A stretch of 64,000 nucleotides of DNA, from positions 2,588,824-2,652,823 of the forward strand of contig NC_087377.1 in NCBI RefSeq assembly GCF_963675165.1, given 5' to 3'. A model generated the notes under the pieces. The model did not search any database. It was not told where the DNA came from and saw nothing but the letters and a program-made list of their open reading frames with translations. Positions 1-64,000 of this stretch are shown here, piece after piece (the first letter of the stretch is position 1; every line of letters starts with the position of its first letter). The position numbers and the translations under genes are program-made. Source of the DNA: Halichondria panicea (taxonomy: Eukaryota; Porifera; Demospongiae; Suberitida; Halichondriidae).

Positions 1-79
1 TTGCGATCACATTCTGGAATGCATTTAATTGTTGCGAATTAATCAGCCCTCGCAAAGTTTGTTGCTCGCAAAACATTCT
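1..79. repeat. Right part of an inverted-repeat element (MITE-like)
   Basis: This is the right part of a small element seen whole at 32169-32305. It ends in a GCTCGCAAAACATTCT-type terminus that matches, in inverted orientation, the AGAATATTTTGCTGGTG-type left end of the complete copy. It lies in intron 4 of the ankyrin gene whose 5' part is outside the window. Confidence 0.6.
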
Positions 80-409
80 AGGTAATTAAAAGGAAATTTC
101 CTATGCCGCCTATATATACACTGAAGTGCGATGAGCACACTTAATAGTTTCTTGCCTCTAATAATTTTATACTAATGGAGCAATTTAATACTTATGATTT
201 TGCAAAAATGATCTCAGATTTCCATCCCTTATTTGGCATGTATTATATCTACGGGCATGCGGCTAGTGAATCCATTGCAGCTTTGATAATTGATTGCACT
301 TTAGTATGCATCACTGTGCATGCTTATAATAATTATAGTGGTATACAAGCCAGCTGAAAGTTACACCACAACTCCCGGTGTATAATTGTGTATACTTGTG
401 CATGTTCAG

Positions 410-1044
410 ATGCAACTGACCGTGCTGGCTGGACTCCTCTTAGAAGAGCTAAAGAGAGTGGTCACTTTGTAATCGTTGACTACTTCAAGTCTCTATCACA
501 ACAATGTAAGCTCGCTATATACACTAGTCTAACAGTCGTTACTGCATGTACTGGTGTGGCCCAATGTAATTATACTCCCTCTTCTATTACACATGCACGT
601 ACAGCTTCTGTGAGTAACTGGAGGCAGGAGAATGGACCACCACCAACAAAGAAACGAAAAGGTGATTAATTTTAGTATAGGAAATAATAGTAGGCGGGTA
701 TTAGCAATTTTAGCGTTTTCAAATTTTCTCTGCTTTTAGGGTTCAATTCACTAATTGGCAGATTTGTACTTTTAGTACAATGAAAAAAGGGCTAGCTTGC
801 TTAGCATACTCTCAAAAGTAAATTGATATAGATTATTCATAAAATTAATCTGACAAGTTAGACTTAGGACCTGTTTATTTTAGCCCCCATAATTTAATTT
901 CATACCGTTATTATGAGCCCCCCTCAAACACCCACACACCTCACAGCTGCCCAGAAAGTGTGTCCTAGCTGTGAGGAGAGCTGTCACATCCGCTACAAGA
1001 AATGTCCCGAATGTGAGCACAAGTTCCCTCACTCAAGGACATAA
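410..1044 (+). CDS. Ankyrin-repeat / zinc-ribbon protein, short paralog, 3' exons only
   Basis: These are the last three exons of a gene whose 5' part lies left of the window: 410-505, 605-661 and 947-1044. All introns are GT-AG and phase 1. Exon 410-505 encodes the last ankyrin repeat (TPLRRAKESGHFVIVDYF). The next exon encodes the basic PPPTKKRK stretch. The last encodes a zinc ribbon with CPSC and CPEC knuckles and stops at TAA 1042-1044. One cysteine present in the long paralogs is tyrosine here. The gene lacks the Ser/Thr-rich tail of the long paralogs. An identical, complete copy is at 30844-33270. Confidence 0.8.
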
Positions 1045-1541
1045 TGATAGAATCGAAAATATTGTAACTAATTAGTGGTACTGTACTTATAATTATTCGT
1101 TTACCGAATTACATGTACATGCGTGTATATATAGTGGATTATTTTCGTATGATGGAAATTTTCAATTCTGATTTAAAACTACGAAAAATAAAAGTATTCT
1201 ACAGCACCACAATACGTACACATTATTCAACATAAATCCCCTGATATTTGCATGCAGTTCATTATAATTATAATATTAAATTATAGCATACATGAATATA
1301 TATACTAACTATACCCGCTATTATGCATGTATGATAATTTTATAGCATATAATTTATAGTTTCATGTAATTGCTCAGTGTTAAAAAATAATTATTAATTT
1401 TAATGTTCAAAAATAATTATAGCAGTAAAAAATGCAATGATTTGTATAATTTTGAGTGGGTTAAAAAAATTGTCTGAAATTATTAATGCAAAAATTCTTG
1501 TTCAGTGACATGGTTTCCATGGTGATAAATGTTCCAGTAGC
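1045..1541. other. AT-rich intergenic stretch
   Basis: This stretch lies between the stop of the ankyrin gene and the convergent minus-strand model at 1542. It is very AT-rich, with short runs such as AATTATAAT and ATATATA. An AATAAA at about 1186-1191 could serve as a polyadenylation signal for the ankyrin gene. I see no coding exon. Confidence 0.5.
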
Positions 1542-2350
1542 TCATGTTTCCTTGGTAACGGGGACCCATGCTTGTTTGCGCTTCTCCTTTTTGACAATGT
1601 CTTCAATTTGTCCCATAAGAGTGTCCATGTAGATCAGGAATAAGATGTGCTTGATACCTCCATTCATGAGGCAGTGATTAAACCTGGGTAACAAATGTGG
1701 AACACATCGTACATGCAATTGATCGAGACATGAGCAAAGAAATGGCAAACTATTACAACACGTCTACATTGCATGGGCTAACTTTGTGGAGGAGGCTAAT
1801 CACATAATTATTAATAGGTTGCCTAGCTCGCTCTATAAGCCTAGAATTATATGAATTGTTTGTAATTAAACAATAGTTACAATTAACACATACAAAGTCA
1901 TACATTAGGCAGTACAGTACCTATAGTTTGTATACAGGGCATCATCATTGACACCGCAGGCAACCTTCATCCAGCCTGGGACTAATGCAAGGAATAGTTA
2001 TACCAAGAAGCACCCCTCATGTTTCAGCAGCTCAGAGTGTTGCTGTCTTGACTGAAAGTAGAGGTATTTAATGTCTGAGTAGGGGAAGTCCCTGCATAGG
2101 AAAGAATAAAGAAGTTTGTTTTACCACAATAATGTAGATCTATAGTTGTAAGGGGAGAAATTGACAGAGCAATACCTTGTGTGTTTGAACAAAGTTAAGC
2201 TTCAATGGAGAGACAAGACTCAGAGTGAGTGAACATGTAGACTATAACTAACCTGACTCTAGTGCCACCTTTCATTGCATAGACCACTGCCTGAATGTTG
2301 AGAGGAGAGACAGGATGATAATGGACGTACCTTCTATGTAGACCAAACAT
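1542..2350 (-). CDS. Unrecognised minus-strand gene model (123 aa), possibly a relic
   Basis: Four minus-strand blocks join in phase: 2350-2253, 2091-2004, 1964-1921 and 1683-1542, giving 372 nt from ATG to TGA. The product includes VHYHPVSPLNIQAVVYAMKG, FPYSDIKYLYFQSRQQHSEL and a basic C-terminus GQIEDIVKKEKRKQAW. I do not recognise the family. The intron between 1965 and 2003 would be only 39 bp, and the start is simply the first in-frame ATG, so the true 5' end may lie further right. The block-B counterpart (10280-10970) lacks the last exon. The phase agreement supports past coding; present function is doubtful. Confidence 0.32.
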
Positions 2351-2694
2351 CCAGACGCACACAATGGCATCAAACAATCAGTGAACGGGACATACGGCAA
2401 AGGTGTGTGCACCTGGGGATTGTTAGGAGGCACTTGACAACTGTTTAGCTTATAACAGCAGCTTCATAAAATAATGTCAAGTATCGATCTCTTATAATTA
2501 CTATTTTATAATCATTACCTATAGCTACTAAAATTAATATAACGCCTTTTAGGACATAATTATAATTACCTCGTAATTATTGCATCAATTCTCGTTTGCC
2601 TCGAATATACGAATATATAATTCCTATTAATTTAATGTGAAGTTTTTCATTATAGCTAGAGGGCCACTTGTGTAAGTGTGTGCATTGCATTAAC

Positions 2695-2720
2695 TACCGT
2701 ATAGCGGGTGATTTTCGAGG
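2695..2720. repeat. Solo terminal repeat of the ACCGTATA element family
   Basis: The sequence TACCGTATAGCGGGTGATTT matches the end of the complete inverted-repeat element at 13828-14058. No matching opposite end is obvious nearby. It recurs in block B near 11319. It lies upstream of the death-domain exon. Confidence 0.5.
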
Positions 2721-3158
2721 GGTAAAATATTCGTTATTTCCGTGGGCAAACTGACCTCCACCCTACATGAAAACAGTTTACCGGAACGCATGCCAGGCAG
2801 TACAGGCAATAACATCAACCGACATTTTTACAGACGAAAATCAACGTTTTCGATTTGTCGCATGGATTTTTACCCCACGAGTAGTACCCACTATCTATCA
2901 TCTATCATAATTATTCGAAAGTCTTCAGTCTTAAAAAGTACATTATTTTGACTCTTGTCCATTCCTCATTACACGCGTTGTGTGGCTTGCATCATTAAAT
3001 AATGGTATGTGCATTTTCAGAATAGTTTGTTGTATGCAGCTTGTCACACACTTTCTAACCCCAAGATGGCTTGTATAATAAGATGCACACTCGTCATTTA
3101 TTTTTGTTACAATATTTTCTTAAGCATTGCCTGTGATCTAATATTGACTTGTGTACAG

Positions 3159-3523
3159 GATCATCCTCAGAGAAGGATACCAGCAATGGAGACCAGCCGA
3201 TTGTTCTGACTGGAGCGGATATTAATACAATTTGTGAGAGTCTGAAAACTGCCACCTATAATTGGTTTGATTTAGGACTGGCTCTCGGAGTGAAGAGGAA
3301 TGATTTGGAAGACATTGAAGATGCATACCGCCATAACCAACGCCGCCTAATGAAGATGGTAACCAAGCGTCTTGAAGTCACTGATCCAGAACATCCGATG
3401 ACATGGCCTTACATATGTGAATGTCTAAGGAGGCCTACTGTTGAGCGTAACGATGTAGCCGAGGAAATTGAAGACAAATATGTGAGGACAGCAACTGCAG
3501 TTCCTCATAGTGCCACCAACTGA
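3159..3523 (+). CDS. Death-domain protein, terminal coding exon (block A)
   Basis: The exon starts after a TGTGTACAG acceptor in phase 1 and ends at TGA 3521-3523. It encodes about 121 residues with a death-fold pattern: LKTATYNWFDLGLALGVK, then NDLEDIED, a basic RRLMKMVTKRLEV helix and TWPYICECLRRPTV. This matches the helix spacing of death domains, with W, LG-LG and the TW-x-C/L signature. Death domains mediate homotypic assembly in apoptosis and innate signalling. No in-frame ATG lies in the exon, so a 5' exon is missing from this model. ATGGAGAGACAAGACTCAGA with a GTGAGT donor at 2205-2224 resembles the first exon of the ankyrin gene but ends in phase 2, so it does not join directly. A GTATGT donor after the stop suggests spliced 3' UTR exons. 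Confidence 0.7.
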
Positions 3524-3966
3524 TCATGAGAACCTGACAAGGTATGTTTGCACTATTAATGTAAATCTGATCCATATTTTCATTGCATACAATATTTTGT
3601 TGCAGAGCTTATAAGACTCTAGTTGATTGTGCTGCTCATGTTTTCATACAGATATACTGGAAGGGGACGAATGAAGATCGCAAGTGAAGAATCATGCAAT
3701 CAATAATTACAATGACTCTTTGCTGACTGTATACATTATAAAGTATGATCATGAGTTACTGACATTTACAAGGTTGAGCTGTGAGATTCAATTTCTAGCT
3801 TTCTAGTTTAGTGACCCTTTTCCATTGTTCCTGGTACAGGAGTTGCTAGCTTGGAACAAGGCCGCTTTAGAAGACGTACGCTTTCCCTGCGGCTTGGAAT
3901 CGAGGCAGATGGGGTGGGGCCATCTTATTAAAATGGGAGACTGAGAATAAATACTGAGAACTAGAA

Positions 3967-6276
3967 ATGGCTACTGAACAAGACTTAGGGTGAGTGAACA
4001 TGTAGACTATAATTACTACTCATGGTAGCACCTTGTGATTGCATGGAGGGAGGCTCATTCCATTAGTAGAGTCAGAGTAGGCTATGATCAGAGGTGGAAC
4101 ACTGTACAGCAAAGTGACAGCTGGATATGTGCATGGTGTCACTTGTATAAACTATATACACACATCAAGTAATTCTCTGTATGACTGACCCCCCAACCAT
4201 CTATTTTGTACAGTGCTCAAAAGAAGCTAGCCGAGGACTTATACGAGGCTGTAAACAAACGTGACGTCGTCAAAGTTAGGTCTCTGTTGGGACAGGGGGC
4301 AGACCCCAACCACCAGCTCTACTGGAGTGACGAGTGGGGATACAAGGATCCTCCATTACACTTTGCTTGTTATCGGGGCTACCTTGAGATTGCGAAGACA
4401 CTTGTTACCCATGGAGCTCGTACTGATAAAGGTGGTGGGATGGACAAGACTCCACTTCACTGGGCATGCCGGGGAGGTAATAAAGAGATGGTGCAGTACC
4501 TGATTCAAGAGCTCAAATGTAGCACTGGTAAGCAGTCGTGTATTAATAAACTAATGTTTCTCTGTATCTAAATTTAAACAGTATAAACCTGTCTGTATCA
4601 TAGCAACTGGGTGAGGTTTAACTACCATAATCTCCGCATTCCTCATAAACTCCCTTGCCTTGAGGGAACATAATAATTATGTAGGCCTATAGCGAAAAAA
4701 TGTTTAGAGATAAATTTGTGTTAAATTTTGCTTATATTTTAACATTTGCGATGTACGCACGTTAGTACAGTATTACTTATGCTTTTGCGTATGATATATT
4801 TACAGTCGAAAAATTGTCGTGATTTGGTTGAATTACTGTACTTGACCATTTTGTTTCTCCTTTCACCATAATAATTAGTATCTGTGTGATAGTTGAACTC
4901 TGTTCCACAACAGACATGAGGGATAAGGATAACATGACTCCTCTTCAACGGGCTTGTATGTGGGGAAAGAAAGACGTGGTACAGTATCTGGTGGAGGAGA
5001 GGAAGATGGATGTTGGTGAGATTTAGTGTGCTCTTGATAGTCTAGCTCTGTATTGCTAACCCACAAAATCCGCGAAAATTAAGCCCCGCGAAAATTTTAT
5101 ACGGTATTTTGTTTGACTATGTGTAATGTACAGATGTGAGGGATAATCAGGGACAGTCACCACTGGACAATGTTCTGGAGGGTCTTGATGATTCGTATCT
5201 TGAAGGCTGTGTGGATGTTGCCCTCTACCTGATGAGCCGTGGCTGTGCATGTGGTGACGAGGACAAAGCCAGGTTACTGTGTGTAGCATGTGACTTTGGC
5301 AAGCTGGGTGTCGTGAAGGAACTTGTTGAGCAATACAAAGTTGACCCCAACAGTAAGTATTAGTATGTACTTGGTGGAGAAGGCCAACTGTGATATCAGT
5401 GAGTACAACACAACCACCATGCAGTGTTATACCTTTGTTTCTACACCCACTCTTGCTCAGGTGTAACTGACGATTATGGCGAGACTCCTCTTGACCTTGC
5501 TACACAGGAGGGTCACACTGAAATTGCTGACTACCTCAAGTCTCTACCACAACAATGTAAGCTCACTAGGATCATGAGTACACAGTGTGGTCCAATACAG
5601 CTACTCTCTCTATACAGCTGCTGTGACTGGAGACACTGACTCCAGGAGTGACGAGAATGGACCACCACCTACAAAGAAACAAAAAAGTAACTTATCCTAT
5701 GTGCACGTACATCTTAATTCATCTCTACCATTTATACGTCTCCGTCCCACACACACACACACACACTCACACACACACAACCACACAGGTGCCCAGCAAG
5801 TGACTCTGAGAGTGTGTCCTAACTGTGAGAAGAGCTGTCACATCCGCTGCAAGAAATGTCCCGAATGTGAGCACGAGTTCCCTCCTTCCAGTAAGAGCAG
5901 GGCCAAACCCGACCAGGATATTGTGAAAAACCCTTCAAACCTACTGCAGATACTACAGAAAAAGGTCACTACACAGTACTAAGAGTATATTAGGCATATA
6001 CGGAGAGTAACGTGACTTCCTGTATCTTTCATGGGCTTGGAATTTGCACACTGACCAATCCTAGCGTGGGTGATGTAATCTATCAAGAAAGTAGATTACA
6101 TCACCCACGCTAGGATTGGTCAGTGTGCAAATGCCAAGCTTGTGACAGATACAGGAAATCACGTTACTCTCCGCATACATCTGATGTACAGTATTCTGAC
6201 AGTACATACTTTATACTGTTAATATTGTATTGTACAGCCTTAAAAAATATTAATTTCACCACATCAAACAACCCCC

Positions 6277-6344
<68 letters not shown>

Positions 6345-6370
6345 CACACACACACGCACACACACATGCA

Positions 6371-6442
<72 letters not shown>

Positions 6443-7246
6443 GACCAACTGTCTCTGTTAGGATTTGACATTGTCGTACTAGTGCACAGAGATTCAAGCA
6501 AATCACATGACTCCTCTTCCACGTCACATGACACGCCCAGTCGCTCACGCCACACCTACAGGAAGTTTGTCACCTCCGGACTGGCCGAGAGCTTTGTTGA
6601 ATCTCCTCTGGTGTACGGCAGTTGGAAAGATTTCTGTAGTTCTGACAAGACCTCAACTGGACACGCTCAGAAATCCAAGAACCCACGAAAGAAAAAAGGA
6701 GTACAAACGAATACTACTACTACCACTCAGGAGGGGGACAGATCACATGATACGAGTGGAGTGTCACATGATCAAGACAATGTATCTCAAGACAGCAATG
6801 GTGCCAATACTCAATCACAAGCAGCACAAAGCTCTACTGCTCCACTCTCTGTTAGTGACTTGACACCACTCTGGAATACAATATCTTCTCTCCGTCAGCA
6901 AATCGATTCCATGCAGTCCAGTCTAAATGCCCCTCCCACTCACGCGTACCCTCAACACATGTACCCCCCAGCTACTGGTTTAATGAACACAGGGCAATCA
7001 ACCTTTGTACCCGTGCCGGGGGGTGGTCTATTCAATACACCACTCCCCAACCATTTCACTGGACCTTCTTCACACAACTCAATGCTGGGACAGTCATCAC
7101 GATTTAATGTGAATCCCATGTCCTTCCCAATGTTTCCATTTTCACCTGCTCCAGCAAATTATCGTTTCCCTTCATCGATTACACCGTTAGAGTCGTCTAG
7201 GCAACCAATGAACTCTGACCCAAACACTGACTCAATAGATCCGTGA
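3967..7246 (+). CDS. Ankyrin-repeat / zinc-ribbon protein with Ser/Thr-rich tail, long paralog A (601 aa)
   Basis: The exons are 3967-3989, 4214-4527, 4914-5015, 5134-5352, 5461-5556, 5618-5686, 5789-5964 and 6440-7246. They total 1806 nt with phases matching at every junction. The first exon encodes MATEQDLG. Residues ~10-265 are about six ankyrin repeats ([56 protein letters not shown]). PPTKKQK at ~268 resembles a nuclear localisation signal. Residues 284-301 are a zinc ribbon with Cys at 284, 287, 291, 295, 298 and 301. A short leucine-rich helix (NLLQILQKK) runs across the last junction into [18 protein letters not shown] and a tail with [20 protein letters not shown], a KNPRKKKG basic patch and a Ser/Thr/Pro-rich end. 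The donor after 5964 (AAG|GTCACT) is weak. Read-through would instead stop at TAA 5980-5982, giving a ~338-aa short form. Ankyrin repeats bind proteins; the role of the tail is unknown. Confidence 0.82.
5052..5106. repeat. Half of an ACCGTATA inverted-repeat element
   Basis: This stretch in intron 3 of the ankyrin gene matches only the right end of the element that is complete in the same intron of the block-B paralog (13828-14058). The left two thirds are missing here. Confidence 0.6.
5997..6177. mobile_element. Hairpin-forming MITE in last intron
   Basis: The ends are TACGGAGAGTAACGTGACTT and its near-perfect reverse complement finishing CTCTCCGCATA. The arms continue inward almost to the centre (GATTACATCACCCACGCTAG on one side, its complement on the other), so nearly the whole element can fold into one long hairpin. 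There is no coding capacity. It sits just after the possible read-through stop of exon 7. The block-B copy at 14953-15098 is shorter. Confidence 0.85.
6278..6438. repeat. (CA)n microsatellite ending at a splice acceptor
   Basis: A C-run is followed by about 160 bp of nearly pure CA with a few CG and TG interruptions. It ends directly in the CACAG acceptor of the last exon of the long ankyrin gene. All open frames across it (HTHTHT, VCVCVC) are artefacts. Intronic CA repeats are known binding sites for hnRNP L, so an effect on use of the last exon is possible. Confidence 0.97.
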
Positions 7247-7602
7247 ACACTTTGCAATAGAATTTGAAGTTATAATTAAAGTCATGTTGTAAAAAATAAT
7301 TAGTAATTATTTGTTCTGTACGTACTACGTCATGTACTTTCAAAGCAAATCAAATTAAATTATCATAAATAGAAAGTGCTCCCATGCATGAGATTGTATA
7401 ATTTCGAATTCAAAGAAGGGTATACGAATACGTATACATATGTAGTTGTACAGAACTATTTCACTGTGGGATAAATTAAAGTTCTATTCGTATACAGGTA
7501 TACAGCAGCAAATTTAAAAGGTATAAAAACTTGCACAATAAAGTATTCCGACTAAACAATACACTATAATTATACTACAACTGTCCATTGCTGCGTATAG
7601 AT
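7247..7602. other. Spacer between convergent genes
   Basis: This AT-rich spacer lies between the ankyrin stop and the glycosidase stop on the other strand. A CACAATAAAG at about 7535-7544 is a plausible polyadenylation signal for the plus-strand gene. A short palindrome around GTATACGAATACGTATAC lies near 7420-7440. I see no gene. Confidence 0.5.
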
Positions 7603-9528
7603 TTAGTCAGATGACATGATGAGTATCCATGTGATACTCTTGGGGTCCATGGTGACAGTCACCACCGCGTTGTAGCCTCTATCCAACCCACACACGAGTG
7701 CTTTGTCAGATAGGCCAGTGTAGTACAGTGGTAGACTGATGTTGCGTGTTATGGCCACTGGAGTGGGGTTGAATATCATGGCTAGACCGCGGTGGTCAAG
7801 GTGAGGGTTCACGTGCAGCACACAGTCGTAATCTGTGCATGCGTGCAGGGGAAAATAGCAATACATTATTACTATTACCATAAACTTTTATAGCTATGCT
7901 ATAAGTCGAAAAAATGTGACACTCTATAGACATGCAGATATAATTATGTTAAACGTGTAATTTTCGTTGGTGAAAATGTTTGTATTCATGAACTATAATT
8001 AATTTTATAACTATTCTGTATTTTTTTAGAGCTGACGTTGAACCTGTTGCATGCGGTAGAATCATTTCGTAGTTTTAGTTTTCGTATAATTGTGATTACA
8101 ATACGACAAATTCCACCATACGAAAATAACCCGCTATTATATATATTTATACGGTACATAATTAATCACTTCTATTCCCTAGCTCCCATGCACACACCTT
8201 GCATGTCTGGTCTCCTCACATGGACTATGTCACTGATCAGAATGTCACGATAGGTCTTGTAGAAACCCACCCACTTCTCCACCAACTGCATGGTTGCATC
8301 AGTGTCATACAACCTGCATGCATGCAGGGAGACCATTAAACCAGACGGTGCATGCATTAGATTCTGAAAAATGATGTGTGGTTTTTGACGTAAGTGCGTG
8401 ACTATTGTGGCAAATATTAGGAAAAAACGCACGTTTGCTACAATAGTCACGCACTCGCGTGAAAACCACACATCATTTTATATATCCTTATACTTTATAC
8501 ACATACCTGGGGCCACGATAACAAGCTGCAACTCCGTAACCAAGGTATTGTGCCAACGCCCACTCATACTCCACTAGGTGCTCAGACAGTGGCTCAAACT
8601 GAGCAGCAGAACCACCTGTTAGTATGTGGAGGGGGCGGATACATTATATAGCGGAATATGGAACAATATACGGACAATAAAATTGAAAGCAGGCATTGAA
8701 AGAGACCTTTTTCAAATAATGATTTTGTGGCCAGAAATTAAAGGAAATTACTGATTAATTAATTAAGCGCCTCAAAATTTAGCGCTATATTTGTATACAG
8801 CATGGTATAATCATTACCCTAACGTACATACATACCTCCGTGATACACGACCAGTGGTACAAACATCCATCCCTGGGTGGGTATGTAATGGTAGGTGTCA
8901 TCATACATCCCCTGTCTGCTCACACTGAGGTCCTCCCAGCGAGGCAGGCTGTACTGGTTCTCATTATAACTGAAGCAAGAGGGACAAGTATTCAGCATGC
9001 ATGCATGGTGAGAGGAGAATGCATGGACCATGCAAACAAACAAATTACTACATAGACCTAATAAATGATGTACACTGATTATAATTAATAACTGGCGGAG
9101 GTGTGGTGGGTGTGGTTAGCTGAGCCGCACGTTGCACCTCCATATGGTCCGTCAGTCTCAAGCATAGAGAGACCAGTTTGGTTGATGAAAGTGAAGATGA
9201 TGTCATTAATCTTGTCATACCTATACAACGAACAAATACACTAGCTATAATTATTATGACTGAATTGCACACGCACATTAATTTTGGCCTCAAAACAAAA
9301 GCAATTGCTAATCCATGTAGTGGATTAACTATCAACTAAATGCAGCTTGATTAGCTCCGAAAAGAAGCCCATTTCAGAAAAATTACCTACTATAACAGAA
9401 AATAGAACACACTGTAACAAAAGCAATGATCTGCATCTATTGTTAATACAATTATAACCGTAGTAACAACATTGTTTCACTCACCATCCAGAAGCGAAGC
9501 AAGCATCCGGTGTTAGTTGTCCTGATTA
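7603..9528 (-). pseudogene. Truncated secreted glycosidase, 3' fragment (block A)
   Basis: This is homologous to the 3' exons of the complete gene at 17020-22118. Recognisable minus-strand exons are 9528-9485 (fragment), 9220 to ~9091 (fragment), 8969-8836, 8615-8507, 8313-8198 and 7832-7603. The last four keep intact splice sites and frame. The exon ending near 9091 is cut by a deletion of about 530 bp that removes its 3' half and the following intron; the frame then runs into a stop after HTHHTSASY. The upstream exons and signal peptide are absent. The final exon has lost 30 bp in frame, so 10 residues (within LPEGQSPGAVY) are missing. It cannot encode the whole enzyme. Confidence 0.85.
8370..8478. 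mobile_element. Small inverted-repeat element in glycosidase intron
   Basis: The arms ATGATGTGTGGTTTTTGACG and GTGCGTGACTATTGTGGCA are matched in reverse by TGCTACAATAGTCACGCAC and GTGAAAACCACACATCAT. The centre is about 25 bp. It is non-coding. The same insertion is present in block B at 17814-17930, so it predates the internal duplication. Confidence 0.8.
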
Positions 9529-10279
9529 TAGTTGTATGATGAGAACACAGCTAAAACCACAACAATGTTGCACTAGGTTACAATACTAACAGGGAATTGA
9601 AAAAACTCTGATACCTTGTTATAGGTCTGCAACACTGAGCAAATTTAAAAAGCATGACCGGGCCATGGTTGCGTGTGTGTGGATCGAGGGAGGGTATACA
9701 ATTATTATAGAGCAAAGCTACTATACTATGGGCTACAGAAATTTACACACACACCTTGCTGGGGTGAGGTGGTTTCTTGCTGATCGACTGATGTGTTGTA
9801 CTTTGCTGCTGCATGTGCTATATATAATAGAGAGACGATAGGTCCATTTCACCAGGCCTGGAGGGAGTCACGTCAATACTCCTGGAGGGGGGTTAAAAAT
9901 AGATACTCAAAAGTTGTGCTCACGAGTGAACTTCACTATAGATACGATATTATTTTGTAAATCTTCTGAAATAGAAGATTGAATAGGCAATTATTAGCTG
10001 GTAATTATCGTATGAACCACCAACAATATTGGTACAACTCAGAATGGTGTAGGTCATGTGATAGCATCTCCTGACACCCACTCTGCAGACACACGTACCT
10101 GTGTGTGCTTGATACCTCCATTCACTCAGTCTAGGAGTAGACACCATGCAGGCAGGGTGAAGGATACAATAGCACACACAGAGATGTTGGGGCACTGTGG
10201 GAGGAGGGAGATGTATTGATGAGCATCATTACACTAGTCACCATAGTGAGACATGTGTACACACGTACCTGTGTGTGCT
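9529..10279. other. Junction spacer between internal duplication blocks
   Basis: This interval is not shared by blocks A and B. It contains two partial copies of the CTTGATACCTCCATTCA / CACACGTACCTGTGTGTG motif seen at the left end of block A, which suggests a rearranged breakpoint. I see no convincing exon; a minus-strand frame of 81 codons at 9950-10195 has no recognisable feature. Confidence 0.5.
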
Positions 10280-10970
10280 CCATTCATGAGGCAGTGATTA
10301 AACCTGGGTAACAAATGTGGACTCATACATCGTACATGCAATTGATCGAGACATGAGCAAAGAAATGGCAAACTACTACAACACGTCCACAGTGCATGGG
10401 CTAACTTTGTGGAGGAGGCTGATCACATAATTATTAACAGGTTGCCTAGCTCGCTCTATAAGCCTAGAATTATATGAATTGTTTGTAATTAAACAATAGT
10501 TACAATTAACACATACAAAGTCATACATTAGGCAGTACCTATAGTTTGTATACAGGGCATCATTATTGACACTGCAGGCAACCTTCATCCAGCCTGGGAC
10601 TAATGCAAGGAATAGTTATACCAAGAAGCACCCCTCATGTTTCAGCAGCAAAGTGTTGCTGTCTTGACTGAAAGTAGAGGTATTTAATGTCTGAGTAGGG
10701 GAAGTCCCTGCATAGGAAAGAATAAAGAGAATGTTTTACCACAATAATGTAGATCTATAGTTGTAAGGGGAGAAATTGACAGAGCAATACCTTGTGTGTT
10801 TGAACAAAGTTAAGCTTCAATGGAGAGACAAGACTCAGAGTGAGTGAACATGTAGACTATAACTAACCTGACTACTCTAGTGCCACCTTTCATTGCATAG
10901 ACCACTGCCTGAATGTTGAGAGGAGAGACAGGATGATAATGGACGTACCTTCTATGTAGACCAAACATCC
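10280..10970 (-). pseudogene. Block-B relic of the unrecognised minus-strand gene
   Basis: The counterparts of three blocks of the model at 1542-2350 are visible. They include a VACSVNNDALYTNY segment near 10560 and the VHYHPVSPLNIQAVV segment near 10900, the latter followed by one extra codon. The terminal exon is interrupted directly after FNHCLMNG, where the block-B left boundary lies, so the C-terminus of the A copy is absent. Confidence 0.35.
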
Positions 10971-11780
10971 GGACGCACACAATGGCATCGACCAATCAGT
11001 GAACAGGACATACGGCAAAGGTATATGTGCACCTGGGGATTGTTAGGAGGCACTTGACAACTACTTAGCTTATAATTCAGCAGCTTCATAAAATAATGTC
11101 AAGTATCGATCTCTTATAATTACTATTTTATAATCATTACCTATAGCTACTAAAATTAATATAACGCCTTTTAGGACATAATTATAATTACCTCGTAATT
11201 ATTGCATCAATTCTCGTTTGCCTCGAATATACGAATATATAATTCCTATTAATTTAATGTGAAGTTTTTCATTATAGCTAGAGGGCCACTTATGTAAGTG
11301 TGTGCATTGCATTAACTACCGTATAGCGGGTGATTTTTGAGGGGTAAAATATTCGTTATTTCCGTGGGCAAGCTGACCTCCACCCTACATGAAAACAGTT
11401 TACCGGAACGCATGCCAGGCAGTACAGGCAATAACATCAACCGACATTTTTACAGACGAAAATCAACGTTTTCGATTTGTCGCATGGATTTTTACCCCAC
11501 GAGTATTACCCACTATCTATCATCTATCATAATTATTCGAAAGTCTTCAGTCTTAAAAAGTACATTATTTTGACTCTTGTCCATTCCTCATTACACGCGT
11601 TGTGTGGCTTGCATCATTAAATAATGGTATGTGCATTTTCAGAATAGTTTGTTGTACACAGCTTGTCACACACTTTCTAACCCCAAGATGGCTTGTATAA
11701 TAAGATGCACACTCGTCATTTATTTTTGTTACAATATTTTCTTAAGCATTGCCTGTGATCTAATATTGACTTGTGTACAG

Positions 11781-12145: not shown

Positions 12146-12588
12146 TCATGAGAACCTGACAAGGTGTGTTTGCACTATTAATGTGAATCTGATCTATATT
12201 TTCATTGCATACAATATTTTGTTGCAGAGCTTATAAGACTCTAGTTGATTGTGCTTCTCATGTTTTCATATAGATATACTGGAAGGGGACAAATGAAGAT
12301 CGCAAGTGAAGAATCATGCAATCAATAATTACAATGACTCTTTGCTGACTGTATACATTATAAAGTATGATCATGAGTTACTGACATTTACAAGGTTGAG
12401 CTGTGAGATTCAATTTCTAGCTTTCTAGTTTAGTGACCCTTTTCCATTGTTCCTGGTACAGGAGTTGCTAGCTTGGAACAAGGCCGCTTTAGAAGACGTA
12501 CGCTTTCCCTGCGGCTTGGAATCGAGGCAGATGGGGTGGGGCCATCTTATTAAAATGGGAGACTGAGAATAAATACTGAGAACTAGAA

Positions 12589-15192: not shown

Positions 15193-15239
<47 letters not shown>

Positions 15240-15386: not shown

Positions 15387-15473
<87 letters not shown>

Positions 15474-54345: not shown

Positions 54346-54424
54346 AGAGCAAGCTTTGTTTATCTAACAGTTTTTTGCAGAAAAAAGGGGGAGGGGCTGG
54401 TGCATTGGGAAGATCTGCCCCACT

Positions 54425-54479
54425 TAGCCTCGATTCCAAGCCGCTCTAAATTGAGAAAGACGGGCTGGGATCGAGGCTA
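54425..54479. repeat. AGCCTCGATTCC hairpin, copy 2
   Basis: Same as 22197-22251. Confidence 0.7.
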
Positions 54480-55001
54480 TGCAAAAATTTAATGTGGTTT
54501 TGCTAGCAGTTGCAATCAAACTGAACAGGCCGGCTGCATAATTATGCAGGCTTGCAGACAAGCTGCAGTATTATATAACATTTGGTTTATAAATCTAGGA
54601 AACCACATTAATTTACTCATGGACCCTTGTTTTTCATTGAGACATTGAGCTGACATATTTAATTAATAAACAGTTGTAATGCAATTAACAAGGTTGAGAA
54701 AGTAAGAGAAAAAGCTACAAAAAAAAAAAAAGAAAGTGAGTTGAGGTGGAATGTTGTCAGAGTAAAATAAAAATACACAGCAAATTGTACATAATTCTTG
54801 CATGCAATTGAACTTTCCTTCATCGCTGCAGTAAAATGTACGAAAAATATATTATGGCAGTTTTATTGTTACCTGATCTGTTGAATAATTAGTGTGTGAC
54901 GCTTTCCAAGCTACCCAGGAGGTACGCCACAGAGCTCGTTCATATTATAGTGATTCGGCCCATATAGGACCCCCTATACACTCTCACATCCCAGGGAGCA
55001 T

Positions 55002-55158
55002 GCAGGGGGTGCACGGACCCCCCGCAGCCAGATCCACACAGAAAGAGAGCAGGAGGCGCACGACCCCCCGCAGCCAGACCCACACAGAAAGAGAGCAGGG
55101 GGTGCACGACCCCCCGCATCCAGATCCACACAGAAAGAGAGCAGGGGGCGCACGACGA
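55002..55158. repeat. 46-bp GC-rich minisatellite, copy 2
   Basis: Same as 22774-22930. Confidence 0.93.
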
Positions 55159-55346
55159 TTTGAAAAGAATAATAGGCTGTTTACGTGATCATATTAAAAA
55201 GAATAGCATAATAGGAGCTAGGTAATATCTCGAGCATAATCTACCAACCTCTACGTACTTGTAAGGTATATACGTACGTACAGCGTTTACTTCCCATATT
55301 GAACTGCTCTAATCCTATTTAAAATAAAACGCTCTACGAACCTCCC

Positions 55347-55721
55347 TAGCCCTAGCCTAGCCTAGACTGGAAACCACTCCCTTCGCTCTGGGCTCTGGGG
55401 ACTGGCAAGTTGCCGTATTGAGAGTTGTCCCGTTGGAATGCAATTAGAACAAACCACAAAAATGAGTAATGCGTGGGTGATATTATTTCATCCTCGATAA
55501 CAGACCGCCAGTGATGTACTTATACTCGAGGCCGATCATATTTTTGTCAGTAATACAGTCATGTAGTTAGCGTGTGGGCGGTGGCACGTGAGTATTTGTG
55601 ACGTTTACATTCTTGTGGCTGCGTGACATTCTTCACGCACTGGGACAACTCTCAACACGGCAGCTTGCCAGTCCCTTTCTCCCGAGAGAAGGGGACTGGT
55701 TTCCAGTCTAAGCCTAGCCCT
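55347..55721. mobile_element. Foldback element with ~80-bp arms, copy 2
   Basis: Same as 23119-23493. The GA run that follows is two bases longer than in copy 1. Confidence 0.85.
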
Positions 55722-56908
55722 GAGGCTCAGGCATATAAGATACAGTAACCCACCAGCGCAGCCAGAGAGAGAGAGAGAGAGAGAGACAGGTCCACCAGCG
55801 AGAGAGTCGAGTGTGAGCAGCGCAGTTGAGCAGCGCAGTTGAGCAGTCCAAGTGCAAGTGTAGAAATGCTCGAATAATTGCCCAACTGACTCTTTTATTA
55901 TCTCCACAACAGGCGAAGGCAGGTTTTTTGTTTTGCAGCACCAATCAGATTGCAGAATGCTTACGTAATAGCTATCGGTTCGCTTCCCAACTCCTCCCCT
56001 TCTCTGAGCTCTGCGGTTAGAGGCGGCCAGGATTCGGAATTCCAAGATGATAATAATCTCTGAAAGGGGCAAGGCTACGGTGGCCCTGAGCGCTGCACTC
56101 TAGTTGGTAGTTCATACTTGATAGTTCAAATGCGTAGTTGGTAGTTAGCAGTTGCTACTTGATAGTTCAAATGCGTAGTTGGTAGTTCGCAGTTGCTACT
56201 AACTTGATAGTTCAAACACGTAGTTGGCAGTTGGCAGTTGGTAGTTCGCAGTTGGGAGTTGGTAGTTGCATGGTAGTTGGCAGTTGGTAGTTGGGAGTTG
56301 GTAGTTGGCTATGGTGGCCCTGAGCGCTACTCTAGTTGGTAGTTCATACTTGATAGTTCAAACGCGTAGTTGCTACTTGATAGTTCAAATACGTAGTTGG
56401 TAGTTCGCAGTTGCTACTTGATAGTTCAGTTGGCAGTTGGCAGTTGGTAGTTGGCAGTTGGCAGTTGGTAGTTGGCAGTTGGGAGTTGGCAGTTGGCAGT
56501 TGGGAGTTGGTAGTTGGGAGTTGGTAGTTGGTAGTTGGTAGTTGGCAGTTGGTAGTTGGCAGTTGGGAGTTGGTAGTTGGGAGTTGGTAGTTGGTAGTTG
56601 GCAGTTGGGAGTTGGTAGTTGGCAGTTCGTAACCTTTAAACTTTGCAACAATAATTAGCCTGCTTTTAAATTATGATAGGCACAGATATCTAGCTGGCCT
56701 AAGACAGCAATATTAGAATCTTATATGTACACATCTAGGTAGGGAGATCATTTCAAGTCTAATCCTCATGTACCTATATTCCCAGATCCCAGCAGGGAGG
56801 GGGGAATTATAGAAACAGGTTTTGCATGGCACTTTTAGATTCTATTGAGGCTATTTAAAGTTATGGTTAAAAGATTAGAGGCAGTGCAAAGATATATCTA
56901 TATACAAC

Positions 56909-58052
56909 CATAGATACACGAAAGAAAGGGATAGGCAACGCCCCACGTGATGCTAGGTAAATGCAGTGTGTGACGTCACACCCTCTGGTTGGAGGCGAGT
57001 TGCGCTCAAGAAAGTACACAATGATCCCTATATCTGCTTATTTTTCTCGTAGGGGGCCTAAAAGAGAAATTCAAAACAATCAGGCATCATGCACACATAG
57101 ACCCAGCACTACTGATAGCTACAGTTGCTATGTTAGTGCCGAGTTTTCTTTTATTCAGCTTGATTTGTGTGAAAAAACACCGATTTGTCAGTTTATGTAC
57201 CTATATCTCCAATATGAAATAATTTTATAACATGTACGTTTCACAGAATTAAAGTGTGTTTATAACTGCATGGAACAAAGCATATTTTCCAGCTCTCAAT
57301 GCAGTGAAGTAGTAGCAGCACCATGAAACGCTTGTCCGAAGTCCAGAAAGTTTGCGTACCTCTCCTGCTCTTACTGTACATGGTAATGTAGTTTGAAGTA
57401 CTCTAAGACACAGTTTAGGTATTAGAAAGTGGAACACAAGTATCTTTATCTGTATTGTGTGATCGAAGAGATGGCATTTGAAGGACTTGGGAACATACCT
57501 GTTATGGTTTGTAGAGTGTACTGACACCCCCCTTTGGAGCTCACTTTCTCATCACTTTGCATATAGTAGCTCTAAAAGATTAATAGCCTATGTCTAAGTG
57601 TATCTGGTGTCTCCTCAAGAGCACAGTTTGCTATAATACTATAAGGCCACTCCAAGTGATACTCTGGTTTCTGGTCCACCGCCCGCATCAGATTTTATTC
57701 TTGGATTTCTATCTCATTATTGGATTTCTATCCCATTATTTCTACTACGCATGCGCAAAAAAAAAAGTCCATGCGGTACAAAATAGTGTGATAATGATAT
57801 TCATTTGCAAAATAATGAGTTCATAAGGTGAAATTGATAATGACATAATGAGAAAAGCCGCCCGCCTGCATGCATTAGAAAAACTTTAGGACCAGAAACC
57901 AGAGTGTCACTTGGAGTGGCCTAAACTATTAATATCTTTACTGACATTTTGAGTGCACACACCCCTTTTTGCTCATTACACGCCCCTTTTTAGCAACTCG
58001 CCTCATCCAACAGAAGTGCTGGGTGTTGCCTATCCCTTTCTTTGTATCTATG
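56909..58052. mobile_element. Nested terminal-repeat element, copy 2
   Basis: Same as 24679-25822. Confidence 0.8.
57644..57922. mobile_element. Innermost nested MITE, copy 2
   Basis: Same as 25414-25692. Confidence 0.88.
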
Positions 58053-58264
58053 ATACAACATTTGCTAACTGCAAAGTTTAAAGGTCACGAACTCCCAACT
58101 GCCAACTCCCAACTGCGAACTACCAACTACCAACTGCCAACTGCGAACTACCAACTACCAACTGCCAACTGCGAACTACCAACTACCAACTGCCAACTGC
58201 GAACTGCGAACTCCCAACTGCCAACTGCCAACTATCAACTGGAGTAGCACTCAGGGCCACCGTA

Positions 58265-58560
58265 GTTGGCAGTTGGCAGTTGGTAGTTGGCAGTTGGGAG
58301 TTGGTAGTTGGCAGTTCGTAACCTTTAAACTTTGCAACAATAATTAGCCTGCTTTTAAATTATGATACTGACACCAATAGATATCTAGCTGGCCTAAGAC
58401 GGCAATATTAATCTTATATGTACACATCTAGGTAGGGAGATCATTTCAAGTCTAATCCTCATGTACCTATATTCCCAGATCCAGCAGCAGGGAGGGGGGA
58501 ATTATAGAAACAGGTTTTGCATGGCACTTTTAGATTCTATATATTGAGGCTATTTAAGAA
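58265..58560. repeat. Second heptamer array and duplicated flank, copy 2
   Basis: Same as 26035-26330. Confidence 0.85.
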
Positions 58561-58750
58561 CACACATACCCAAGATTAAGTGTTTTAATCTGCGTGCCAA
58601 GTAGCCTCGATTCAAGGCCGATTAAAATACGGATTGCAGGGGTGATAGTGCGCATGCACTTCAAATTACCCAGTATGGGTAATCGTACCACGAACGTAAA
58701 ACCTTAGTAAATTATCCAGAAATTAGTCCGTTTACTAAGAATATGTTCCG

Positions 58751-59243
58751 TTGTGGAGACCTAAATTAATAAAGGATATCAAGTCACTAGAAAAAGTGCA
58801 ACGCAGAGCCACAAAATATATCCTTAATGATTATGTATCAGACTACGCAAGACTCTGCAAATTAAAGTTATTGCCCCTCATGAGATGGTTTGAACTGCAA
58901 GATATCATGTTTATTGTGAAATGTATGCAGCAGCAGTCGGACGATATAAGAGAACTAGTATCTTTCACTTCATCCAAAACCAGGGCAGGCTGCTCAGGCC
59001 ATTCCCTTCAAATTAAATTTGCTAGAAATAACTATTCAAGACACTTCTACTTCATTACTTCATTAGAATTGCAAAAGTATGGAATAAATTGCCGTCGAAT
59101 TTAATAAATCTAGATTCATCTCTATAGGAACAATCAAGAAAAAGACTTCGGACTTTTTAGTGTCAGATTTTCTAGAAAACTTTGACACAAATAACTTATG
59201 TTCATTTCATATGGTTTGCCCATGCTCTAAATGTCATATATAG
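58751..59243 (+). pseudogene. LINE C-terminal relic (second lineage), copy 2
   Basis: Same as 26521-27013, including the frameshift. Confidence 0.82.
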
Positions 59244-59286
59244 GATCCTCTGTTAACTATACTTATCACTCTATAGATTATATAAT

Positions 59287-60818
59287 CAGAGATACAAAAG
59301 AAAGGGGATTGGAAACGACCGCCCACGCCCTATGTAAAAGGACTGACATCCGGTGAAGCCAGAGATACAAAAGAAAGGGGATTGGAAACGACCGCCCACG
59401 CCCTATGTAAAAGGACTGACATCCGGTGAAGCACTCCGTGTAATTATTGCGCTCGCAAATAATTACATGGAAAAGTTTTATATCCCTGGTTTCTAGCTCT
59501 CCTATCCACTAGAGATCACTCAGGGCCTGGGAGATACTTGAGAGAAGTAAGCTTATACCACTGACAAGCTCTAAGTCCGTTGTCTTTACTCTGTTTCCAA
59601 TTTTTTTGAGTTTAGCTTGAATTACTCTATGTCAACTTTTCTCTGTCCCTCCTGTGAAGTCAAAACAGCAAAGGACATTGCTTGACTTGGTTATTATGTA
59701 TCTAAGTGCTACATAGAATGGCTTCATGCTATAGATAAGCTGTACTGTTCATAAACGTTTGCAGTATAGTCCTTCAAACTGCTTTAGTATACTTTTAGAC
59801 ACGCCACGGGCCTGTCCCTCCTACGACTTCATAGTAAAGGCTATTTCTTCTTGCATAGCATTTATTTGTCTAGTAATAGTGGCTGCATGGCTTAGTCGAC
59901 TTTTTAGAGCTAAATTCTCTTTACTTTTTAGAAAAATTAACATTAAAAATGATCAATTTCACTGTTTCTATGTACAGCACATTGTAGAGCAGTCAAGACT
60001 GGTAATGAGCATGCTGACTATAAATATAATCCTTTGTAGTTTTAGCCACGCCCTATAACGCGGAATGCTTCACACAAAAATTTCGAAAAAATTTCGTTTC
60101 CAATCCCCTTTCTTTTGTATCTCTGGTGAAGCACTCCGTGTAATTATTGCGCTCGCAAATAATTACATGGAGGACTGCGCTATCCCTGGTTTCTAGCTCT
60201 CCTATCCACTAGAGATCACTCAGGGCCTGGGAGATACTTGAGAGAAGTAAGCTTATACCACTGACAAGCTCTAAGTCCGTTGTCTTTACTCTGTTTCCAA
60301 TTTTTTTGAGTTTAGCTTGAATTACTCTATGTCAACTTTTCTCTGTCCCTCCTGTGAAGTCAAAACAGCAAAGGACATTGCTTGACTTGGTTATTATGTA
60401 TCTAAGTGCTACATAGAATGGCTTTATGCTATAAACAAGCTGTACTGTTCATAAACGTTTGCAGTATAGTCCTTCAAACTGCTTTAGTATACTTTTAGAC
60501 ACACCACGGGCCTGTCCCTCCTACGACTTCATAGTAAAGGCTATTTCTTCTTGCATAGCATTTATTTGTCTAGTAATAGTGGCTGCATGGCTTAGTCGAC
60601 TTTTTAGAGCTAAATTCTCTTTACTTTTTAGAAAAATCAACATTAAAAATGATCAATTTCACTGTTTCTACACATAGTAGAGCAGTCAAGACAGGTAATG
60701 AGCATGCTGACTATAAATATAATCCTTTGTAGTTTTAGCCACGCCCTATAACGCGGAATGCTTCACGCAAAAATTTCGAAAAAATTTCGTTTCCAATCCC
60801 CTTTCTTTTGTATCTCTG
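59287..60818. mobile_element. hAT-like tandem dimer element, copy 2
   Basis: Same as 27057-28588 with one C to T change near 59937. Confidence 0.85.
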
Positions 60819-61113
60819 ATATAATATACATCAGCTGCTCCAATGTTGGAGTAAGTCTGTCAGCTATTTCCTCTCACCCAATAATTTTCACTTAATTTCT
60901 TTTGTGCATAGCTGTAAAGTTCACATAATAATAATAAAAAATAATAAATTACAAAGAGTTTTACTAACAAATTTACTATTGAATCCACCCACGCCCAAAC
61001 AGTGGTTACCAGGCCCTCTAGTGAGAGGGGCTGGGACTGAGGCTAAGCTAGATCTAGCTACAGTTGGTGGCTAGCTAGCTAGCTAGACGTAATAGCAAGG
61101 TTTGTAGATCCAG

Positions 61114-61575
61114 TAACTGATGCAAAGGAGAAGGAGATAAGATCTAAAGCTATCTGGACTGACTGGGCATGTTCTCGACTTATTTCTCCTGCTGACCAAC
61201 AGTCCCGATCCCACTACTGGATATGCCTCCAGCTGATCTGGCTTACTGGCCGGATGGGAAACTTTGTGCGCAAACTATATGGCAATGAGTATCTGGTTTG
61301 CTCTTTTGGAAAGCTATGATATTCGAAGCACCTTTGATAAACGATTATATGGATCTGGCTTAGGTACAGGTGTACATACATCTTCGAAACAAGCTGAGCC
61401 TATTTCTCCAGACGAAAAAGCGATGCTATGGTCAAGTCAGCAATTTGGTACACATGAAACAAGTCGAAACAATAACATTCAACTTTCTAATACTTTTCAG
61501 CTTTGCTTGTGTACATATTCAATCTGCTTGTATTATTATTATAATTATGATGACATTCAGATTCAATCTGCTTAA
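61114..61575 (+). pseudogene. DUF3504 / Crypton-like relic, copy 2
   Basis: Same as 28884-29345. Confidence 0.5.
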
Positions 61576-61779
61576 AGCACACTTAATTAAGTGTGGATTA
61601 AGTTATGTAATCCATGGTCACCTGACTACTTTCAGATAAGCTGATTGGCTGGAGATCATTAGCCTCGAATCCAGGCCGATTAAAATACGGCCTGGTACCT
61701 ATTGCATGTGTAATTAATTATAGGCGTGGCCGTCCACGCCCATGTACTATCTGAAGCTTTTATAGCCTAGCTAGCTAGC

Positions 61780-62195
61780 TAGCTGTGGCCTTCTCTATGG
61801 TGTTGTGTTGAGAAGGCTTGCACACGAAGCCAAAAGAGGCTCTCATCTACCTCTATGATGGTTGGATGGTCGTGATGTTTTGAACTGGGTTTCTGACAGA
61901 CTATGGCAAGTCTTTGACTTTGTGCTTCCAACTGCAACCATAGGACCATTGTAGAGGTAGATGTGAGCCTCTTCTGGTTTCATAATAGTGTGCAAACCTT
62001 CTCGACAACACAATAGAGAATATAAGCCACAGCTTCACAGGAGAGAGAGTTTAAAGTGTTTCTGACAGACTATGGCAAGTCTTTGACTTTGTGCTTCCAA
62101 CTGCCACCATAGGACCATCGTAGAGAGCCTCTTCTGGCTTTAGACAAGTGTGTAAGCCTTCTTGACAACACAATAGAGGGCATAAAGCCACAGGA
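61780..62195. repeat. Complex foldback with tandem half-repeat, copy 2
   Basis: Same as 29550-29965. Confidence 0.85.
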
Positions 62196-62961
62196 GACAA
62201 GTATTTGTTAAAAATAATACGGAAAGAACTAGTAAACAAACTAGTTTACGGTATAATTTTACAAAGGTTTACTAACGTGAACGAATTCCCCAGATTCTGG
62301 GGAACTCAGTTTGCGCATGTGCACATCACCCATGCAATAGAGACCAGGCCGTATTTTAATCGGCCTGGTCTCGAGACTAGGAGATCATGTGACAGCACTA
62401 AGTTATGGTTAAAAGCAGAGGAGGTACGACACGCGGTTAAGCTCACGTGGCTGCTATTTCTTGATTGAAGGCAAGAAAGACAAAGAAGTCGTTAAAAATG
62501 CATTCCAATGACGACATTCAACTGGTGGCAAGTAAGCGCCATAAAGAGACAAGTTTAGAGCATAAAACTCAGTGAATTTGTTGCTGGCTAGTAGCTAGAG
62601 TTTTACAAGTAGAGATTAGATTTGTTGTAAGAACCAAGGCTCAGATGTTTGCAGTGATCCTATCCTGAATGCAGGCACAGAATACTTATTGAATACTCTA
62701 AAACAGAATTACACTAAAAACAATAATATCTCAAAATCTAAGTGGTGGTTGAAACTGGTTGAAAAGCTATTTCACATCAGTATAAGCCCAGCAATCAACA
62801 ATCCTGATCTTAGAAACGTCAAGTGTATTTTTTGAAAGATACACGCCAAACCAAATCCACTATCAAAGTACACAGTCTTGAATGATATTATTCATGCACA
62901 AGTTAATGAGATTCATAATCCTTTTAGCTGGTCATGTGACCGTGTCGTACGTACCTCCTCT

Positions 62962-63030
62962 GGGTTAATTAAAAGATTAACATTTGCCAACTGCCAACTA
63001 CCAACTGGAGTAGCACTCAGGGCCACCGTA
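62962..63030. repeat. Solo heptamer-element terminus, copy 2
   Basis: Same as 30728-30796, with a four-base insertion (AATT or TTAA) directly upstream near 62966. Confidence 0.85.
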
Positions 63031-63077
63031 CGAGGCTGATCTGCAGCTCAGCTAGCGCTATCGGGAGTACATGCACC

Positions 63078-64000
63078 ATGGACCCAAGTCAACAAGACTC
63101 TGAGCTACAGTAAGTATAACGGTGTCATTACACTATAAAAGTTGCAGATTTATTTGTAACCTTCTGGCAGAAGTTCTGCGCTGCACGTACGTATATTCTT
63201 CAAGTAAGTAGGTCTATGTGACTGAGTGACACCCTACCTATATCTACTACCGGTATTTTTGGACATATTTGTGTACAGTGCTCAAAAGAAGCTAGCCAAG
63301 GACTTATCTGAGGCTGTAGTCAACTATGATGTCATTAAAGTGAGATCTTTGTTGGGAAAGGGGGCGGATCCTAACCACCAGCTCTACTGGAGTGACGAGT
63401 GGGCGGAGCTGCCTCCATTACACTTTGCTTGTCAGAAGGGCAACCTTGAGATTGTGAAGATACTTGCTACCCATGGAGCTCATATTGATAAAGGTGATGG
63501 GAAGCTGAACAGAGTTCCACTGCACTATGCATCCAGGAGGGTTGAGGTGGTGAAATACCTGATCCAAGAGCTCAAATGTAGCACTGGTAAGTAATCAATT
63601 TTGTGTCTTCAGTTGGCAAATAATTGTTTCCTTGAGCTCAATCAGTTACATAATTAGTCTGTTCCCAACTTCCTATGCATGCACAACAGATTTGAGGGAT
63701 AAACGCAGCAGGACTCTTCTTCACTTGGCTTGTATCGAGGGAAGTAGAGACGTGATACAGTATCTGGTGGAGGAGCTGAAGATGGATGTTGGTGAGTTTA
63801 ATTAACTGTTACTATAATTATAGTCTTGGTTGAATGTTCTAATGCACGTATATACCCTGATCTCCTATATACACTGTAATTTATAACAGTATGTCATTGC
63901 TGTCCAGTTGATTAGACAACTGGCATATTAATGAGATTACCACTATCGATATTTTGCGGGTGAAAAATGAATCTAACTATTGCGTTCTGGCAAGGATCAT
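63078..64000 (+). CDS. Ankyrin-repeat / zinc-ribbon protein, short paralog, 5' exons only
   Basis: The exons are 63078-63109, 63279-63586 and 63690-63791, matching the first three exons of 30844-33270; the rest lies beyond the window. The one coding difference I see (AGA to AGG near 63713) is silent. Downstream, three bases are missing near 63899 relative to copy 1. Its presence implies that the repeated region continues to the right. Confidence 0.8.

Follow-up and report, generated by a model that had tools for sequence, protein, structure and literature searches.

The 64,000-bp stretch of the Halichondria panicea genome considered here (the window, positions 2588824-2652823 of contig C1) carries part of a tandem array of ankyrin-repeat genes. 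The array consists of three complete units arranged head to tail, denoted L (left, 31.6 kb), M (middle, 32.2 kb), and R (right, 32.2 kb). Each unit comprises two ankyrin genes, both with an upstream Death-like exon, a minus-strand open frame of 370 amino acids (aa), and a degenerate ankyrin copy, as well as remnants that we take to be reverse-transcriptase-like and that have no Pfam match. The array is probably real, and we are fairly confident that it reflects an older duplication followed by a recent unequal crossover that made M, with the ankyrin genes forming a recognition-like cluster under selection at its binding surface. Positions below refer to the window unless the contig is named.

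The genome searched comprised 39 contigs with 131,455,214 bases, and for self-comparison, flanks were added to the window to give 262 kb (contig 2450001-2712000). BLASTN of the window against itself produced a single long alignment, in which bases 1-31769 match bases 32227-64000 in the same orientation with 99.94% identity over 31,777 columns (8 mismatches and 11 gap bases), just as a preliminary description had noted. The differences are clustered, and the longest stretch identical letter for letter is 17,890 bp. The most frequent 25-mer offset, 32,226, agrees with the unit of 32.23 kb given in that description; its observation is confirmed, with two refinements: the window ends are not unit ends, and the 32-kb period extends leftward beyond the window to a third complete unit. 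A simple two-copy duplication is rejected in view of this third unit and of the junction common to the copies. The true ends of the repeat, which were to be sought by self-comparison of the full contig, were already found within the 262 kb, at contig 2558840 and 2654929. Older relatives of the block, in the same orientation and about 86-96% alike, lie to the left. The earlier proposal of a very recent multi-gene tandem duplication, perhaps within a longer array, is supported by the three full units, their common novel junction, and the older diverged neighbours.

Both unit joints are identical (2/2) and read GATCAGGAATAAG-A-TGTGCTTGATACC; the same joint can be spelled at other lengths as gatcaggaataag-A-TGTGCTTGA or GATCAGGAATAAG-A-TGTGCTTG. 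The two parental flanks are also present separately, at the left end of the array as cctgtg followed by TGTGCTTGA (contig 2558839/2558840) and at its right end as gatcaggaataag followed by GCACC (contig 2654929/2654930). The joint carries one extra base and is without clear homology, which suggests end joining or faulty replication as the origin of the first duplication.

The middle unit looks like a hybrid of its neighbours. The three-way count covered the right part of the units, where all three align closely (about 17-18 kb, corresponding to contig 2573237-2590468 in L). None of the 86 differing substitution columns has M as the odd one out, and there is one switch, at contig 2618543. To the left of it, L is odd in 46 columns, R in 2, and M in none, with 12,985 columns alike; to the right, R is odd in 38 and neither L nor M in any, with 4,066 alike. 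Indel events are distributed in the same way (left: L 18, R 2, M 0, and one unresolved; right: R 20, L and M 0). The switch is confined to 385 bp between the last L-type and the first R-type difference. M reads T at 29720, where L has C, and T and A at 30105 and 30110, where R has C and G; the combination at the three positions is T-T-A in M, C-T-A in L, and T-C-G in R. Across the 28 kb of M that precede the switch, 3 substitutions and 3 small indels separate M from R; two of these substitutions are private to R, and the third is at a place where L is gapped. If mutation rates between 1e-9 and 1e-8 per site per generation are assumed, this divergence corresponds to roughly a few thousand to some tens of thousands of generations.

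Such a mosaic reads as the signature of unequal crossover between mispaired R and L. In the first step, an older duplication would have joined contig 2654929 to 2558840 to give L and R; the junction itself is observed, the mechanism being our interpretation. In the second step, R of one chromatid would have mispaired with L of the other, and a crossover somewhere within 29720-30105 would have inserted M as the left part of R joined to the right part of L.

The same topology is expected if the contig passes from the R-left of one haplotype into the L-right of the other, so that the true locus has two units and M does not exist. This assembly artefact, which the preliminary description had raised as a false join of haplotypes, appears quite improbable. 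In its favour, M lacks private substitutions in the compared part, which a chimera would also do; the longest stretch of identity reaches 17.9 kb; and false duplications on the same scaffold are documented (PMC9516828). Against it, the join would have to lie within 385 bp where L and R agree, flanked on either side by positions at which they differ. Overlaps between accurate long reads are usually far longer and should not bridge such a stretch, although the read type here may differ. The 3 M/R substitutions in about 28 kb would, moreover, require near-zero heterozygosity, and alleles in outbred marine animals usually differ more than M and R do. Since M and R are non-identical, a simple double traversal of one path does not explain them. 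Among the marks of false duplication listed in PMC9516828 are a gap between the pair and half read depth or haploid-depth single-copy k-mers; there is no gap between the copies here, no N being present from contig 2474478 to 2691977, and the only N runs within the 262 kb are at contig 2474278-2474477 (200 bases) and 2691978-2696977 (5,000 bases).

Another route to the same mosaic would be copying of M from R without crossover, by a replication-based process, followed by an L conversion tract of about 3.8 kb that overwrote the right end of M. The divergence of L from M and R is uneven, with 99.1% identity in the block that holds the 370-aa frame and 87-96% over the ankyrin genes, and this suggests conversion between neighbouring units; the ankyrin part has therefore undergone exchange or change at a much higher rate. 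This route needs two events, whereas a single unequal crossover gives the copy and the mosaic together, and we attach little probability to it. The base combination specific to M offers a cheap read-level discriminator of true tandem copies from mis-joins.

A second near-identical tandem pair occurs to the left of the window, at a distance of about 67 kb (contig 2481816-2498824 and 2505024-2522024, offset about 23.2 kb). It has 38 substitutions in the first ~1.2 kb, followed by a single one in about 15.8 kb, and its left edge is sharp. The array appears not to be the sole recent exchange in the region. The left boundary of the close match among L, M, and R (contig 2573237) and the right boundary of the second pair (contig 2498824) are both situated in CA-rich tracts within introns of the ankyrin gene; the unit joints are not located in such tracts.

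The first of the two ankyrin genes, gene a, was modelled from splice signals and paralogues, and all seven of its introns are GT-AG with matching phases. The predicted product contains ankyrin repeats, a basic motif PPPTKKQK (our own reading of the sequence), a CPNC..CPEC zinc-ribbon-like motif, and a serine/proline-rich tail. In Pfam, ankyrin repeats are matched with E 7.9e-35 and no other family convincingly; the zinc-ribbon-like motif gives a weak DZR match (16.2 bits, below the cut-off of 27.3). Because neither NACHT nor NB-ARC is among the seven Pfam families reported up to E 1 for the 601-aa product, it is not a NOD-like receptor (NLR) by the domain test. Chains of designed ankyrin repeat proteins (DARPins) occur among its PDB sequence matches. 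Nine of the array's ankyrin copies have open frames, 590-618 aa long, and represent seven distinct genes, a and b each being present twice with identical protein; all seven, examined as full-length, have open frames. One further copy, K0, is without 3′ exons, and the three degenerate copies are broken. The 370-aa frame has three matches genome-wide, all within the array; it has no match in Pfam and a weak one in PDB (CutC, E 0.0044). Searches of the window revealed nothing in Rfam and no tRNA. The features are collected in Table 1.

Table 1. Units, junctions, and genes of the tandem array (window positions unless marked as contig).
Feature	Position	Strand	Remarks
Unit L, left	contig 2558840-2590468	+	window holds the last 1.6 kb only (1..1645)
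Unit M, middle, complete	1646..33871 (contig 2590469-2622694)	+	32,226 bp
Unit R, right	33872..64000 (contig 2622695-2654929)	+	runs on past the window; window-equivalent end 66106
Tandem junction 1 (L to M)	1632..1660	+	gatcaggaataag, one extra A, then TGTGCTTGATACC
Tandem junction 2 (M to R)	33858..33886	+	identical to junction 1
Crossover interval in M	29720..30105	.	R-like up to 29720, L-like from 30105/30110
Death-domain-like exon upstream of gene a	3159..3523	+	Pfam Death 15.4 bits; start placed by splice signal
Ankyrin gene a	3967..7246	+	8 exons, 601 aa
Gene a exons	3967-3989, 4214-4527, 4914-5015, 5134-5352, 5461-5556, 5618-5686, 5789-5964, 6440-7246	+	
Death-domain-like exon upstream of gene b	11781..12145	+	Pfam Death 16.6 bits
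Ankyrin gene b	12589..16654	+	projected exon 7 without AG; same-phase acceptor 6 bases upstream
370-aa open frame	20050..21162 (M), 52277..53389 (R), contig 2577437-2578546 (L)	- in M and R	
Local 0.7-kb tandem repeat	27192..28588 (M), 59422-60818 (R)	+	two copies each; one copy in L
Degenerate ankyrin gene copy	31046..33255	+	one at the right-hand end in all three units
Gene a copy in R	36193..39472	+	protein identical
Gene b copy in R	44815..48881	+	protein identical; exon 7 acceptor likewise 6 bases upstream

The Death-like exon has no PDB match. A joint Death-ankyrin gene was considered for gene a and, on our reading of the sequence, rejected, as the Death-like frame stops before the first exon of gene a and no donor with the phase required by the first ankyrin exon was found in it; a short, phase-matched start exon (MATEQDLG) lies between the Death-like and the first ankyrin exon. 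Around three Death-like exons elsewhere (3/3, with 4.1-4.2 kb fetched for each), no match to the gene a protein was detected. Just past the stretch fetched at C1:2933359, there are ankyrin (2928601), zinc-ribbon (2926072), and tail (2924741) exons of the family, the minus strand of C1:2924741-2933712 bearing Death-like, ankyrin, zinc-ribbon, and tail exons in this order, with a stop in the tail. Since family exons adjoin a Death-like exon there, the placement of Death beside ankyrin is not peculiar to the array. With 150 out of 459 candidates scored, the Death-like exon has at least 150 matches genome-wide.

For the tail exon, the genome contains 17 matches of full or nearly full length, nine of them in the array and all on C1, plus two short pieces; one match outside the array carries a stop. 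The first ankyrin exon is far more widespread, with at least 151 matches (150 of 1,246 candidates scored), weak ankyrin similarities included; about 90 of the matches listed reach at least 50% identity, mostly on the first 6 Mb of C1. Dense clusters are seen elsewhere as well, Death-like at C14:0.5-1.65 Mb and C1:5.3-5.5 Mb and ankyrin-like at C6:3.3-4.0 Mb, and some matches in them form pairs whose scores are the same or almost so; the members are separated by tens to hundreds of kb and may represent further recent duplications.

Selection was assessed from the ratio of nonsynonymous to synonymous change (dN/dS) at repeat positions 2, 3, 5, 13, 14, and 33, which we take to be those randomised in DARPins. 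In the array test, columns gapped in any of the seven genes were dropped, and the numbering covers repeats D, E, and F only in part. The pooled dN/dS of the array genes is 0.33 in the basic/zinc-ribbon exons and 0.29 in the tail exon. At the DARPin positions, it rises to 2.40 (column bootstrap 1.24-6.7), compared with 0.66 elsewhere in the repeats. Three or more residues are found in 18 of the 29 DARPin-position columns and in 8 of the 138 others (p=5e-11); shifting the register by 1-32 gives p 0.008 at best, and none of 20,000 random six-position sets reaches the observed excess.

The variability line had been viewed before the position set was assigned, and exons outside the array therefore matter as a check. 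Sixty exons were taken from the top of the listed first-ankyrin-exon matches, leaving out array exons, the near-duplicate C1:4742486, five partial matches, the matches with in-frame stops C2:4627540 and C8:3778516 and, for no stated reason, C1:5620537; that all 60 are open is thus a property of a selected set. In subfamily 1 (39 distinct exons of 40), dN/dS is 2.72 at the DARPin positions (bootstrap 2.0-4.0) versus 0.57 elsewhere, and in subfamily 2 (20/20, with the poorly matching rows L076, L086, and L094 kept), it is 2.35 (1.5-4.4) versus 0.54. Disjoint nearest pairs give 3.94 versus 0.60 (subfamily 1, 19 pairs) and 3.55 versus 0.75 (subfamily 2, 10 pairs). In these pairs, 149 of 276 amino-acid-changing differences fall in 11 of 64 columns in subfamily 1, and 101 of 196 in 11 of 63 columns in subfamily 2. 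Position 10, which presumably lies on the same ankyrin face, is also among the most variable, and positions 4, 16, and 24 vary as well; position 33 hardly does, nor, in repeat B of subfamily 1, do positions 2 and 14. By these counting methods, the canonical binding positions appear to be under positive selection with the framework conserved.

Targeted hypermutation of the variable codons was considered too and is unsupported, synonymous change being 0.235 at variable and 0.186 at other positions, a comparison limited by the few synonymous sites of variable codons. In exons L036-L075, variable ankyrin codons have scarce C and mostly G or T as the third base, which gives them an NNK-like look.

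The duplication might instead be neutral or driven by another gene of the block, such as the 370-aa frame, with ankyrin variability reflecting relaxed constraint. The confinement of that frame to the three units would fit this explanation, as would the reverse-transcriptase-like remnants carried along in the block and a dN/dS of 0.94 over whole ankyrin exons. Relaxed constraint predicts a value of about 1, whereas in the array and in both outside sets, dN/dS exceeds 1 at binding positions and is below 1 elsewhere in the same exons; we therefore regard this explanation as unlikely.

Several points weigh against the combination of a real array, a recent unequal crossover, and binding-surface selection. 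The array is known from the assembled contig, and its topology is one that a haplotype mis-join would share. The identical stretch of 17,890 bp may exceed the reads used, which makes the number of exact units uncertain in either direction. The three-way count starts only beyond the left ~14 kb of the units, L being just 87-96% like M and R in that part. The ankyrin genes are predicted models, and the Death matches (15.4-16.6 bits) are below the Pfam cut-off of 22.6. As for selection, dN/dS was obtained by pairwise counting on recombining paralogues; over whole ankyrin exons of the array, it does not exceed 1, and in the tail exon, it does so in 3 of 21 gene pairs.

Among known systems, tandem arrays in corals seem to be the closest precedent for the genome dynamics. 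In non-syntenic regions of Acropora haplotypes, multi-gene blocks with hitchhiking transposons are multiplied in tandem, for which unequal crossing-over was proposed; the families concerned are of immune type with repeat domains, and one of these includes ankyrin (PMC12314368). The combinations named for the coral are those with TPR-CHAT, glycosyl-transferase, or NACHT (PMC12314368), whereas here ankyrin repeats go with basic and zinc-ribbon-like motifs; moreover, the hybrid unit, the 385-bp breakpoint interval, and the original junction can be read directly here. For the surface pattern, the ankyrin repeats of fungal NLRs appear to be the closest precedent: according to PMC4986451, those of Podospora NOD-like receptors show positive selection and hypervariability at concave positions of the inner helix and β-hairpin. 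The fungal diversity consists of repeat-number variants of one receptor (PMC4986451), while here it is spread over many genes with a fixed framework, in an animal-like genome, and the gene a product is without a NACHT/NB-ARC match.

DARPins share with the present genes a fixed framework and variable positions 2, 3, 5, 13, and 14, with position 10 added here and position 33 hardly variable; unlike DARPins, the genes described here are natural, germline, and multiple, and they add the basic motif, the zinc-ribbon-like motif, and the tail. In sponges, the NLRs of Dysidea avara have likewise undergone large lineage-specific and partly clustered expansions, some with DEATH domains, but their architecture is LRR/NACHT, and the word "ankyrin" is absent from the main text of PMC12909245. 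For Halichondria panicea itself, ankyrin-repeat genes are reported among those responding to lipopolysaccharide. A term search of titles and abstract starts in the open-access literature found no comparable animal ankyrin repertoire.

Some further features were noted. A 7-bp minisatellite (GTAGTTG/AACTGCC) occurs at 23990-24401 and 25858-26086 in opposite orientations, about 1.5 kb apart, and again at 56220-56631 and 58088-58316; these tracts are perhaps the ends of a mobile element. A tandem satellite with a 74-bp period occupies contig 2450001-2454490. A COX1-like fragment of 64 residues, sponge- or cnidarian-like in appearance, reads through only with TGA as Trp; situated in a nuclear contig (C1:5280527-5280718), it is probably a mitochondrial insertion.

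Taken as a whole, the ankyrin cluster looks like a recognition repertoire that is natural, germline-encoded, and DARPin-like, and that unequal exchange keeps changing. Such exchange would make and remove copies and join parts of neighbouring genes; selection would favour new binding surfaces and thereby keep the copies diverse; and the conserved C-terminal part may couple binding to one common output, perhaps a nuclear one. Within the cell, the products might bind non-self proteins, microbial ones among them, and an immune role is conceivable. The locus probably displays an unequal crossover caught almost fresh, with the original junction, the hybrid unit, and the breakpoint interval all readable, and it links this source of copy-number change to genes with an ankyrin surface that evolves in the manner of a binding repertoire. 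It is possible, though we put this forward only tentatively, that an early-branching animal possesses on the order of a hundred germline ankyrin genes that form a natural DARPin-like repertoire, with a conserved framework and strong positive selection at the target-binding positions, generated and reshuffled by continuing unequal crossing-over in megabase-scale clusters. If this is true, the repertoire would stand beside NLRs and antibodies as a further recognition system of animals; if the function holds, ankyrin genes would join the known recognition repertoires of animals, with proteins and positions at hand to test.

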